Shown here one piece after another: positions 16,333 through 32,538 of a stretch of 32,640 nt of DNA. Position 1 is the stretch's first letter, and every line of letters starts with the position of its first letter. Source of the stretch: a bacterium. GTDB lineage: Bacteria > Sysuimicrobiota > Sysuimicrobiia > Sysuimicrobiales > Segetimicrobiaceae. A program made the position numbers and the translations under genes. Location: contig DATGFS010000014.1 in NCBI GenBank assembly GCA_035308905.1, positions 1 to 32,640 on the forward strand. Reading direction: 5' to 3'. The notes under the pieces are model-generated. The model was not told the DNA's origin and made no database searches. It saw only the letters and a program-made list of their open reading frames with translations.

Positions 16333-16622
16333 TGAAACCCGCTTCGCGATCCCGAACGCGACGGCCGTGGTCTCGGCTCCCACGGCCACGATGGACGCAG
16401 CCGGTGTCGTACCCGTCGCCACCAGATGCGGCGGCGCGGAGCCCGTGCGTCGGGCGGCAGACGGCAGCCCCGGACCGAATTTCACGGAAATGGTGGTATC
16501 TTGTGGACGGTGGGGACATTTATCCACAGTTTTACACTCCCTTAATACACATCGGATATGACGTGCCCAATTTCCAACAGGTTCCGGTTTTTCTCCGGCC
16601 TCTCGGCAGGAGTCCCGTCTCC

Positions 16623-16654
16623 TTATCCACAATCTTTTCCACACCTGTGGATAA
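16623..16654. promoter_or_regulatory. DnaA-box cluster (three boxes)
   Basis: TTATCCACA (+), TTTTCCACA (+, one mismatch) and TGTGGATAA (the minus-strand box), separated by three and two bases. Such a cluster upstream of dnaA usually serves both origin assembly and autoregulation of the dnaA transcript. Confidence 0.88.
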
Positions 16655-16876
16655 CGTGGTTCACCCGCTGTGATCCGCGCGGTACACAGTCTGCACACCG
16701 CATGCGCGACGACGGTGGCGCGTGACCGCTGAAAAGACTGCGATCATCTCTCCACAGAGTTGACCGCACCACGGCATTTCAGCGGCATGCTCGAAAAGTA
16801 CGAGACGGGTGCGAAAACAAAAGGAGGGCATCCGCGCGCGGCCAATCTTTCGTGCGCACGCGGAGGAGTCGCATAG

Positions 16877-17698
16877 ATGCAGGACTTCTTCCTGCGGCTC
16901 GTGTCTCAACGGGGAGATGAGACCGCGAACGAGGCGCAGGCGCCCGAAGTTCGCGTAGCGATCTACGATTCGCCGCTCGCACCACCGCAGGTCGTCACCC
17001 TCTCGTCTGATGACTTCAACCAGCTCATCGGCGAATTGTCCGCGCGAACGCACAGTTACGCGCGGGAGCGGGGCGGCCGCATCCCCTTCGTGGTCATCAA
17101 GGAGATCATCGAAAATTTGATTCACGCCTACTTCAAAGACGCGGTCGTCACGATCATGGGTGACGGCAACACGATCCGCATCTCGGACCAGGGGCCCGGC
17201 ATTCCTGAGAGTGTGCGGGCACATGCGTTCGAGCCCGGTTTCACGACCGCCACGCGCGAGATGCGCCGGTTCATCAAAGGTGTCGGGTCCGGACTGCCGG
17301 TCGCGAAGGAGCAGCTGGCCTTCCTCGGCGGCGCGATCACGATCGATGACAACCTGAAGGGCGGCACGGTCGTGACCCTTCACGTCGGCCCGCCCGCGGG
17401 AGCCGCGCCGGAGGCGGCGGCCGCGCCGCGAGTCGCGGCCACGGCGCCGGCGGTCCCCAGCGCGGCCGCGCCGCGTCTCTCCGACCGGCAGAAGAAGATC
17501 CTGCTCCTGATCGCGGAGATCGGCGCGGCCGGACCGTCGACCATCGCCAAGGAGCTCGGGATGAGCCACAGCACCGCGTTCCGTGAACTGTCGGCGCTGC
17601 AGCACATGCGGCTGTTGGCGGTCGGCACCGCCGACCCCGGCAAACGGACGTTGACGGAAGAGGGCATCGCGTTTCTCGGCACCGTTTTCAAAGACTAG
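16877..17698 (+). CDS. GHKL ATPase-winged helix protein inside the origin; function unknown
   Basis: 273 residues from ATG 16877 with GGAGGAG at 16862-16868. N-terminal 1-60: unassigned. Residues about 65-170 are a histidine-kinase-like ATPase domain. The N box is VIKEIIENLIHAYF (73-86, N80 for magnesium), G1 is ISDQGPGIP (D104), the F-box is AFEPGFTTA, and G2 is GVGSGLPVAKEQL (135-147). The domain ends in GGTVVTLHV. Nucleotide-binding residues appear intact, but there is no H-box/dimerisation helix, so it is not an ordinary sensor kinase; resemblance to SpoIIAB/RsbW-type serine kinases is partial. A Pro/Ala linker (171-200) leads to a C-terminal winged helix (201-273: SDRQKKILLLIAEIG, PSTIAKELGMSHSTAFRELSAL). 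It sits between the DnaA-box cluster and dnaA, 39 bases before dnaA, probably co-transcribed. An ATP-responsive DNA-binding regulator of dnaA/oriC is a reasonable but unproven idea. Confidence 0.85.
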   Translation: MQDFFLRLVSQRGDETANEAQAPEVRVAIYDSPLAPPQVVTLSSDDFNQLIGELSARTHSYARERGGRIPFVVIKEIIENLIHAYFKDAVVTIMGDGNTIRISDQGPGIPESVRAHAFEPGFTTATREMRRFIKGVGSGLPVAKEQLAFLGGAITIDDNLKGGTVVTLHVGPPAGAAPEAAAAPRVAATAPAVPSAAAPRLSDRQKKILLLIAEIGAAGPSTIAKELGMSHSTAFRELSALQHMRLLAVGTADPGKRTLTEEGIAFLGTVFKD

Positions 17699-17737: not shown

Positions 17738-19129
17738 ATGGACGTACAGAGCATCACCGCCGGCCAGGTATGGCAGGAAGCCCTGACGCGGATCGAGAGT
17801 CAGCTCAGCAAGCCGAGCTTCGAAGCGTTTCTCAAAGCGATGCAGCCGCTGGCGCTGGAGCAGGATGTCTTTGTGTTTTCCGTTCCGAGCGCGTTCGCGA
17901 AAGAATGGCTAGAGGGCCGCTATCGGGGTCTGATTGCGGAGACGCTTCGCGAAGTACTGACGCGCGGCGTGGACGTGCGGTTCGTCGTGACCGACGTCGA
18001 TTCCAACGGCCACAGTGCCCGCCCCGCGCCGCCCACGCAGGCGCTCTCGCGTCCCGAGGCAACGGCGCCCGGGGCGGTCGGCGACATGCGGTACCACACC
18101 GGCAAATACACGTTCGACACCTTCGTCGTCGGCGCCGGCAACCGATTCGCACACGCGGCCGCGCAGGCGGTCGCAGAAGCCCCGGCCCGAGCCTACAATC
18201 CGCTGTTCATCTACGGCGGAGTCGGACTGGGCAAGACGCACCTGCTCCAGGCCATCGGCCATTACGTCCTGAGCCACTCACCGGCGGCGCGCGTGATGTA
18301 TGTCTCCTCGGAACGATTCACGAACGACCTCATCAACGCGATCCGCGACGACAAGATGGTGGAATTCCGCCACCGGTACCGGAACGTCGACGTGCTCGCC
18401 ATCGACGACATCCAGTTCCTGGCCGGAAAGGAGCGCACGCAGGAGGAGTTCTTCCACACCTTCAACACCCTGCACGAGACGAGCCGCCAGCTCATCATCA
18501 GCAGCGACCGTGCCCCCCGCGAGATCCCGACGCTGGAAGACCGGCTGCGCTCCCGGTTCGAGTGGGGCCTCATCGCCGACATTCAGCCGCCCGATTACGA
18601 AACCCGCGTGGCTATCCTCCGCAAGAAGGCGGAAAAAGACCGCATCGTCGTCCCTGACGAGGTGGCGCAGTACATCGCGCAGCGCATCTCCTCCAACATC
18701 CGCGAGCTCGAAGGAGCGCTGAGCCGGCTTCGCGCCCATGCCGAAATGTCGCGAACCTCCATTTCGGTCGACCTGGCCGCGGAAGTGCTCAAAGAGCTCC
18801 TTCCGCAGGCGCGGGTGCGCCCCGTGACGATTCCGGCGATCCAGCGGGCCGTCGCGGAGTTCTTCGGGATTCGGATCGAGGAAATGAAAGCCAAGCGGCG
18901 GACCAAAGGAGTCGCCTTTCCCCGCCAGGTGGCCATGTATCTCTGCCGGGAAATTACCGACGCCTCGCTGCCGCGGATCGGCGAAGAGTTCGGCGGCCGC
19001 GATCACACGACGGTCATGCACGCCTGCGATCGGGTCAAGCGCGCCCTGCAGGAGGATGCCCACCTGAACGCCGGCGTTCAGAGTCTTGTGGAAAGCTTCC
19101 GGACGGAACGTCCCGGAGCCAGGGGATAG
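17738..19129 (+). CDS. dnaA: Chromosomal replication initiator DnaA
   Basis: 463 residues from ATG 17738, GGGAGG upstream. Domain I about 1-80 (VWQEALTRIESQLSKPSFEAF), and a short linker domain II (90-115). Domain III is AAA+, with Walker A GGVGLGKTH (160-168), Walker B LAIDDIQFL (220-228) and the arginine-finger region LEDRLRSRFEWGL (266-278). Domain IV carries the DNA-reading helix GGRDHTTVMHACDRV (419-433). It binds the boxes on both sides of its own gene and opens the DNA. The flanking boxes imply autoregulation. Confidence 0.99.
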   Translation: MDVQSITAGQVWQEALTRIESQLSKPSFEAFLKAMQPLALEQDVFVFSVPSAFAKEWLEGRYRGLIAETLREVLTRGVDVRFVVTDVDSNGHSARPAPPTQALSRPEATAPGAVGDMRYHTGKYTFDTFVVGAGNRFAHAAAQAVAEAPARAYNPLFIYGGVGLGKTHLLQAIGHYVLSHSPAARVMYVSSERFTNDLINAIRDDKMVEFRHRYRNVDVLAIDDIQFLAGKERTQEEFFHTFNTLHETSRQLIISSDRAPREIPTLEDRLRSRFEWGLIADIQPPDYETRVAILRKKAEKDRIVVPDEVAQYIAQRISSNIRELEGALSRLRAHAEMSRTSISVDLAAEVLKELLPQARVRPVTIPAIQRAVAEFFGIRIEEMKAKRRTKGVAFPRQVAMYLCREITDASLPRIGEEFGGRDHTTVMHACDRVKRALQEDAHLNAGVQSLVESFRTERPGARG

Positions 19130-19345
19130 TATGTGCACCGTCGGAGCTGCCTCAGGCGCCGACCGCCCGGTCGGGGGATGACCTGGATAACCTCACCCGA
19201 CCGGTAAATTCCTTCAGTCTGGTTATCCACAGGGCGAAATCGCCGTCTGGTGCGCCTCGCTGCCGATATTCACACAATCCACAGGTTCTACTACTACTAC
19301 GACGAATCTTTATATAAGAAAACTTCTACCAGGAGGACCTCAGGA
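19130..19345. other. Downstream half of oriC: basal unwinding system between dnaA and dnaN
   Basis: A perfect DnaA box TTATCCACA lies at 19223-19231. Weaker boxes are CCTGGATAA (19182-19190, minus-strand sense), ATATTCACA (19266-19274) and CAATCCACA (19275-19283), each two bases off. The two last are adjacent and are followed after a short GGTT by CTA trinucleotides (19288-19299) and the AT-rich stretch 19306-19323. This order (boxes, trios, AT-rich DNA) is the layout described for the basal unwinding system of Bacillus subtilis. The dnaN ribosome binding site AGGAGG (19331-19336) closes the region. Confidence 0.82.
19288..19305 (+). repeat. DnaA-trio array
   Basis: CTA repeated four times and then CGA twice, immediately after a DnaA box. 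On the opposite strand this is the 3'-GAT-5' trinucleotide series on which DnaA forms its single-strand filament. Confidence 0.75.
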
Positions 19346-31331: not shown

Positions 31332-31359
31332 GGTAGTGTCAAGAGGTTTGTGTAGTTTG
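31332..31359 (+). repeat. Left terminal inverted repeat of the IS256 element
   Basis: Imperfect 28-base end pairing with 32613-32640. The TGA stop of the transposase (31339-31341) lies inside it, so the gene runs to seven bases from the element's end. Confidence 0.75.
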
Positions 31360-32538
31360 CCATAGCACGGGGCGGCCGGCCTGCCGGAGATTGAACGCCT
31401 GGACGACGGCGTAGATGATGCGATCGCAGCTGGCGAGGTTCGTGAAGCAGGTCATGGGGCGGGTGCGGCGGCGGATCTCGCGAAACGCCCGCTCGATGGC
31501 ATTGGTGGTGCGGATGCGTCGCCAGTCGGCCTGGGGGACGGCATAGAAGGCCAGCAGCGCTTCCCAATCGCGCAGGACCGTGGCGACGGCGCTGGGGGCC
31601 GTGCGCTGCCACGCCGTGCGCCACTGGTGGAGGGCGCGTTCGGCGGCGGGACGGGAGCGCGCGTGGGAGATGCGGCGGGCGAGGGCCAGACAGGCGTCGC
31701 GGTCCCGGACGCGGAGGCGCTGCGCGACGTTGCGCAGCACGTGGACCCAGCAGGTTTGCCGGGGGACGTGCGGATAGACGAGCTCCAGGGCACGATGCAG
31801 GCCGGTCTGGCCGTCGGTGGTGATGAGGCGGAGGGCCGCGCCGGTGAGGCCGCGGCAGGCGAGGTTGGTGAGGAAGGCTTCCCAGGTGCCCTGGCTTTCC
31901 GCGCGGACGATGCGGTAATCGAGGAGTTCACGGGGGCCGGCCGCCGTCAGCCCGTAGGCGACGAGGACGAGGCGGCGGCGGTGGCCATCGGGCGTTTTGA
32001 CGCGCATGCTGACTGCGTCGAGGAGCAGATACTGGTAGCGGTCCGCCAGCCGCCGATCATGGAAGGCCGCGACGGCGCGATCGAGGGCTTGGGTGACCTT
32101 AGAGACGGTGGTGGCGCTGACGGTGTCGTGGAGGAGCGGCGCGAGCACAGGACCGACTTGACGGGTGCTGAGGCCGCCGAGGAAGACGCCGCGGATGAGG
32201 GCGTCGACCTGCGCAGTGCGTTGCTGGTAGTGGGCCACAACGGACGGCCGGAAGCCGCGCTGGCGGGAGCGGGGGATGCGCAGATCGGGAATGGTGCCCC
32301 AGGTGGTGATGAGCCGGCGTTTGTAGACGCCGTTGCGGTACCCCGCGCGGCCGTAATGGCGGACGTAGCGGCCGGCGTTGAGGTAGTCGACGAGCTCCTC
32401 GTGCATGCGATTCTCGAGGAGTAGTTTGACGGAGCGGAGGGTGTGCTGCGAGACGTCGCCCCACAGCGTGTCCGGCTCCTTGACCTCTTTCCACAGATCG
32501 GCTACGGTGAGATCGGTCAGTGCTGGCACACTGGCCAC
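31339..32538 (-). CDS. IS256-family (mutator type) transposase
   Basis: 399 residues from GTG 32538, AGGAGG eight bases upstream. DDE catalytic triad: D174 (LLLDAVSMRV), D242 (ITTDGQTGLHRAL) and E349 (TNAIERAFREIRRRT). The C-W-x-H motif (QTCWVHVLRN) sits between the second D and E, as usual for the family. The N-terminal part has ENRMHEELVDYL and YRNGVYKRRL. Length is normal and the frame is intact, so the element may still be active. It is transcribed toward the phosphoribosyltransferase gene with no terminator between. Confidence 0.95.
   Translation of the reverse strand: MASVPALTDLTVADLWKEVKEPDTLWGDVSQHTLRSVKLLLENRMHEELVDYLNAGRYVRHYGRAGYRNGVYKRRLITTWGTIPDLRIPRSRQRGFRPSVVAHYQQRTAQVDALIRGVFLGGLSTRQVGPVLAPLLHDTVSATTVSKVTQALDRAVAAFHDRRLADRYQYLLLDAVSMRVKTPDGHRRRLVLVAYGLTAAGPRELLDYRIVRAESQGTWEAFLTNLACRGLTGAALRLITTDGQTGLHRALELVYPHVPRQTCWVHVLRNVAQRLRVRDRDACLALARRISHARSRPAAERALHQWRTAWQRTAPSAVATVLRDWEALLAFYAVPQADWRRIRTTNAIERAFREIRRRTRPMTCFTNLASCDRIIYAVVQAFNLRQAGRPVLWQTTQTS

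Follow-up and report, generated by a model that had tools for sequence, protein, structure and literature searches.

A GHKL-winged-helix protein gene directly before dnaA, a candidate regulator of replication initiation in several bacterial phyla

Gene order and origin architecture

This analysis focused on a gene lying directly before dnaA in a 32,640-nucleotide stretch of DNA (the window), which comes from a MAG-like assembly of 81 contigs. The features of the locus, numbered on the window, are as follows.

16520..16654, no strand: upstream origin half and dnaA regulatory region, with DnaA boxes, conserved across the phylum
16520-16528, forward: DnaA box of the upstream cluster
16623-16631, forward: DnaA box of the upstream cluster
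16635-16643, forward: DnaA box of the upstream cluster, with 1 mismatch
16646-16654, reverse: DnaA box of the upstream cluster
16748..16850, forward: conserved block of fixed spacing, a DnaA-like box (CTCTCCACA) followed by elements that are not DnaA boxes
16877..17698, forward: GHKL-winged-helix protein gene, 273 aa, ATG start, open ORF
16946..17002, forward: N-terminal strand region, residues 24-42 (EVRVAIYDSPLAPPQVVTL), conserved and family-specific (alignment A1)
17093..17386, forward: HATPase_c / GHKL domain (Pfam), residues 73-170, boxes fully or almost fully conserved among 143 proteins
17390..17476, forward: Pro/Ala-rich linker, residues ~172-200, of varying length in the family, pLDDT <50 at 174-196
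17477..17695, forward: winged helix, residues 201-273, MarR/TrmB/IclR/Csa3-like (Pfam in relatives, AF2 model)
17738..19129, forward: dnaA, with Pfam DnaA domains, second gene of the presumed operon
19223..19323, forward: downstream origin half between dnaA and dnaN, with DnaA boxes, DnaA-trio and AT-rich stretch

The reading frame at 16877-17698 is not a chance one, since homologues with 58-85% identity occur throughout the phylum of the window. From its stop codon to the start of dnaA at 17738 there are 39 bases, the spacing given in the preliminary description. Near the end of the window, the translation of a reverse-strand ORF (31339-32538) reads like a putative transposase of the IS256 family (Mutator type).

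The upstream cluster of DnaA boxes described earlier was recovered at 16520-16654, and in the window as a whole 7 DnaA-box matches were observed against 0.94 expected. The elements of the block at 16748-16850 hold their spacing in different families of the phylum; in families outside the window's own they include CGTGAAAT and GGTAGGA. Judged by its sequence, this block is a candidate promoter/operator of the operon; dyad symmetry there was no more than background, so that as an operator it is to be regarded as a candidate and nothing firmer. An EM motif search of upstream DNA from four groups found no non-DnaA-box motif common to all four phyla, and returned DnaA-box variants together with one palindrome in one Actinomycetota set. 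The palindrome proved to be an artefact, being the rpmH start region.

In the downstream half, DnaA boxes were located at 19223-19231 and at about 19276-19285. After the first of these come AATCCACAGG, a DnaA-trio (TTCTACTACTACTACGACG, 19286-19304) and the AT-rich stretch. A comparison with 20 relatives showed a DnaA-box-like site, trio repeats and an AT-rich stretch there too, though many of the boxes are imperfect and the trios differ in length. This region (19223-19323) is likely to be the unwinding site of the origin, and its arrangement of DnaA box, DnaA-trio and AT-rich stretch matches the basal unwinding system of B. subtilis (PMC6669920), where the origin is also bipartite around dnaA (PMC13220808). 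The earlier statement that the gene splits the origin needs correction: with the likely unwinding site (the DnaA-trio) placed downstream of dnaA and not upstream of the gene, the origin is read as bipartite, and the gene lies between its halves. In L131, the dnaA-dnaN gap is densely packed with DnaA boxes (TTATCCACA and its complement) ahead of the DnaA-trio.

Domain structure and comparison with known systems

The intact nucleotide-binding domain proposed in the preliminary description was borne out by Pfam: its HATPase_c model covers residues 73-170 and scored 57.1 bits (E 2.9e-15), above the 26.4 needed. The GHKL motifs comprise an N box (E76..N80..H83), a G1 box (D104-G106-G108) and a G2 box (G135-G137-G139). 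All of 143 proteins compared keep N80, H83, D104, G106, G108, G135, G139, G152 and G163, and 140 of the 143 keep the N-box glutamate, E76; the loss of nucleotide-binding residues across the family, for which a check had been suggested, was therefore not seen. In the N-terminal region, R26, A28, Y30 and P37 are each present in at least 85% of the same proteins.

The winged helix of the window protein (~201-263) falls narrowly under the curated Pfam cutoff (HTH_IclR, 21.8 against 22 bits). Orthologues exceed the curated cutoffs of several models: TrmB, IclR and ArsR in L123, TrmB and IclR in L130, and TrmB, HTH_20 and IclR in L051. An AF2 model, computed from alignment A1, places three helices and a wing at 203-272 with pLDDT of about 85-94 up to the last residues. 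Together these results uphold the C-terminal winged helix after a Pro/Ala linker, and between 123 and 143 of the 143 proteins retain S230, T233, R236 and L241. Over the whole model the mean pLDDT was 73.8 and pTM 0.51, which makes the placement of the domains relative to each other unreliable. Long members of the family (up to ~500 aa by ORF call, as are the gene starts of distant members generally) contain both domains, with extended linkers or N-termini.

As had been claimed, the 273-aa protein has no phosphoacceptor domain or sensor that could be found, nor a receiver domain. HisKA-type Pfam models matched none of 14 family members, and residues 1-72 form strands and helices in the AF2 model, without a DHp/HisKA domain. 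No NCBIfam model reached its cutoff for the family.

The best sequence and fold matches are the CA domains of histidine kinases (CpxA, HK853, WalK, PhoQ), which share the N, G1, F and G2 boxes. Unlike those kinases, the window protein has no DHp/HisKA, sensor or membrane part, and carries a DNA-binding domain at its C-terminus instead. Membership of the GyrB/MutL/Hsp90 group was rejected, as an S5-like transducer is absent and the GHKL domain is followed by the Pro/Ala linker and winged helix. SpoIIAB and RsbW are small soluble GHKL proteins with an N box of the form N...HA(Y/G), as in the window protein, but the latter has a winged helix and no adjacent gene for a sigma or anti-anti-sigma factor; membership of this group was likewise rejected, the best model being HATPase_c rather than HATPase_c_2 and the neighbours being rpmH/rnpA and dnaA. 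The CARF regulators of the Csa3 / CasR type likewise couple a domain for a nucleotide ligand to a winged helix similar to that of MarR, and the helix part matches them (E 2e-8 to 4e-6, the NCBIfam Csa3 scores being under the family cutoff). The ligand domain of the window protein is, however, GHKL and not CARF, and a defence-system reading was discarded because the match is confined to the winged helix.

A similar architecture is that of PDB entry 3lmm, in which a GHKL-fold domain is likewise followed by a winged helix. It gave the sole whole-query alignment among the 50 PDB matches listed (271 columns, TMq 0.48-0.49, E 1e-5), though with just 15-16% identity. This structure is DIP2311 of Corynebacterium diphtheriae, of the COG2865 type (AlbA_2 - HATPase_c_4 - winged helix), a family which has an additional N-terminal domain and for which we know of no linkage to dnaA. 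Neither AlbA_2 nor HATPase_c_4 gave a Pfam match in members of the present family, which places them outside COG2865. The novelty suggested earlier must accordingly be narrowed: GHKL joined to a winged helix is already known elsewhere, and DnaA regulators as such are a known kind, but a version dedicated to dnaA appears to be undescribed in the sources searched, a literature that left most subscription journals uncovered and in which no dnaA-linked GHKL protein was found.

Linkage to dnaA and distribution

The gene is present in a single copy in its own genome, where the remaining matches are weak, ordinary GHKL proteins. The window protein shows every feature by which the dnaA-linked family can be defined: a GHKL domain with a winged helix, one copy of the gene, and a place immediately ahead of dnaA. 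The loci of 148 different genomes were inspected, and in all 140 for which the downstream stretch could be read, dnaA came next in the same orientation, with a median gap of 34 bp. At the other eight, the contig, record or stretch ends shortly past the GHKL gene; in six of these a long contig ends there or close by, which fits circular records that were opened at dnaA. The scattering of homologues that the preliminary description had proposed to look for was not observed, as none was seen away from dnaA among the loci inspected. The other usual neighbours are rpmH/rnpA/yidC, in divergent orientation. In 30 genomes without the gene, the dnaA locus was found in 29, and none had a hidden homologue upstream in the stretch checked (up to ~1.5 kb, short or absent in several).

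One genome provided a separate view of this pairing. In L133 (G522; L133:2562-6600), the upstream DNA, GHKL gene, dnaA and DnaA-trio region have been inverted as one unit, so that the GHKL gene is preceded by dnaN/recF and dnaA is followed by rpmH/rnpA. The pairing of the two genes has thus outlasted their neighbourhood. A long dnaA ORF (509-603 aa) was noticed in several Coriobacteriia-like genomes (L122, L123, L125, L141 and L161); the GHKL protein is also long in some of them, and the two may have lengthened jointly.

Within the phylum of the window, the gene was matched in 39 of 43 genomes, among them all 28 with a completeness of 90% or more and a contamination of 5% or less. Beyond it, a profile built from 14 sequences (alignment A1) found the gene in all 3 genomes of the small phylum to which L007 belongs, 31 of 299 in that of L008 (a MAG labelled Clostridia), and 156 of 396 Actinomycetota, the phylum of L009. 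Among 148 genomes of the phylum to which an uncultured Bacteroidales MAG belongs, none had a family member. The phyla sampled, four with the gene and one without, were those reached from the first matches. Nearly all carriers, many of them deep-branching bacteria, have one copy per genome, and by inference they include the cultured species Eggerthella lenta (a gut bacterium; L123), Atopobium parvulum and Cryptobacterium curtum.

In a quick DnaA tree, proteins with and without a GHKL neighbour were interleaved within each phylum, so that the tree gives no support to the idea of the GHKL-bearing dnaA genes as one clade transferred across phyla. A quick tree of the GHKL proteins recovered the window's phylum and that of L007 as clades, leaving the deeper order unresolved. 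The simplest reading of these trees suggests an old gene that was repeatedly lost, and old transfers between lineages may also have occurred. The gene was absent from ~60% of the Actinomycetota genomes and from ~90% of those of the Clostridia-containing phylum that were sampled, and is thus dispensable over evolutionary time.

A possible role in initiation control

On balance, the protein is probably a cytoplasmic regulator that binds both nucleotide and DNA and whose dedicated targets are the dnaA operon and the origin. This reading is favoured by the pairing with dnaA, the intact ATP pocket, the DNA-binding fold and the lack of a kinase partner. The single copy, the wide and old distribution, the joint inversion in L133 and the upstream elements of constant spacing speak for it as well. 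The GHKL domain would bind ATP and, given the retained N-box glutamate, perhaps hydrolyse it, and its nucleotide state would alter the dimer geometry or the DNA affinity of the winged helix. The target DNA would lie between the upstream DnaA boxes and the gene's own start codon (about 16480-16880), where the bound protein would set transcription of its own gene and of dnaA; possibly it would also govern how DnaA is supplied from the upstream boxes to the unwinding site that follows dnaA. The net effect would be to tie initiation to the adenylate state. No operator shared by all the phyla was found, but given its conservation between them the winged helix might, speculatively, recognise DnaA-box-like or adjoining DNA. 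Some points count against a regulator. GHKL domains are often kinases or ATPases rather than allosteric switches for an HTH, a common motif other than the DnaA box is missing even though the winged helix is well conserved, and the conserved upstream block may simply reflect a promoter and DnaA autoregulation. The absence of the gene from many of the sampled Actinomycetota and Clostridia-phylum genomes is a further such point.

Rather than controlling transcription, the protein could act directly on DnaA or the orisome, as an ATP-driven clamp or remodeler whose winged helix serves as an origin anchor or protein-binding module, with little role in transcription. The N-box glutamate has a known part in ATP-hydrolysing GHKL enzymes, and E76 is kept here as in those enzymes, while tight pairing with dnaA would equally be expected of a partner subunit. 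The Bacillus DnaA regulators YabA, Soj, DnaD, SirA and CcrZ act by contact (PMC13220808). They resemble the role proposed here in that they control initiation, but differ in fold, as far as known, and in having no such linkage to dnaA. We consider direct action unlikely, as a transducer domain of the GyrB/MutL/Hsp90 type was not found and the strongly conserved DNA-binding fold favours specific contact with DNA. Less probable still is a free-standing kinase like SpoIIAB/RsbW, which would phosphorylate or sequester a partner such as DnaA or else a sigma or anti-anti-sigma factor. The N box of those kinases (N-x-x-x-H-A/G-Y) resembles the N-L-I-H-A-Y of this family, H83 is present in 143 of 143 proteins, and some relatives give weak HATPase_c_2 scores, but the top Pfam model is HATPase_c, no SpoIIAA- or sigma-type partner gene was seen adjacent, and to our knowledge SpoIIAB-type proteins have no winged helix.

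It is also improbable, and slightly more so than a kinase, that the protein regulates unrelated genes and is kept near dnaA by the general rnpA-rpmH-dnaA-dnaN synteny. Gene order around dnaA is conserved in many bacteria and unrelated neighbours are common there, but homologues were never found apart from dnaA, the gene is retained in four phyla, and the inverted cassette of L133 moved as a unit while rnpA and dnaN switched sides.

Returning to the regulator of the dnaA operon and origin, a wider proposal, which we put forward tentatively as possible, is that it is an ancient regulator of initiation, an ATP/ADP-gated winged-helix protein co-inherited with dnaA since before several Gram-positive-side phyla split and lost in model organisms. 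At a bipartite origin, it would couple the energy state of the cell to the supply of DnaA or to the assembly of the orisome. Most of what is known of replication control comes from a handful of model species, E. coli, Bacillus and Caulobacter among them, and a single-copy companion of dnaA in four or more phyla makes a strong candidate for an older layer of control that has been missing. The cultured carriers, by inference E. lenta, A. parvulum and C. curtum, make the family open to experiment.
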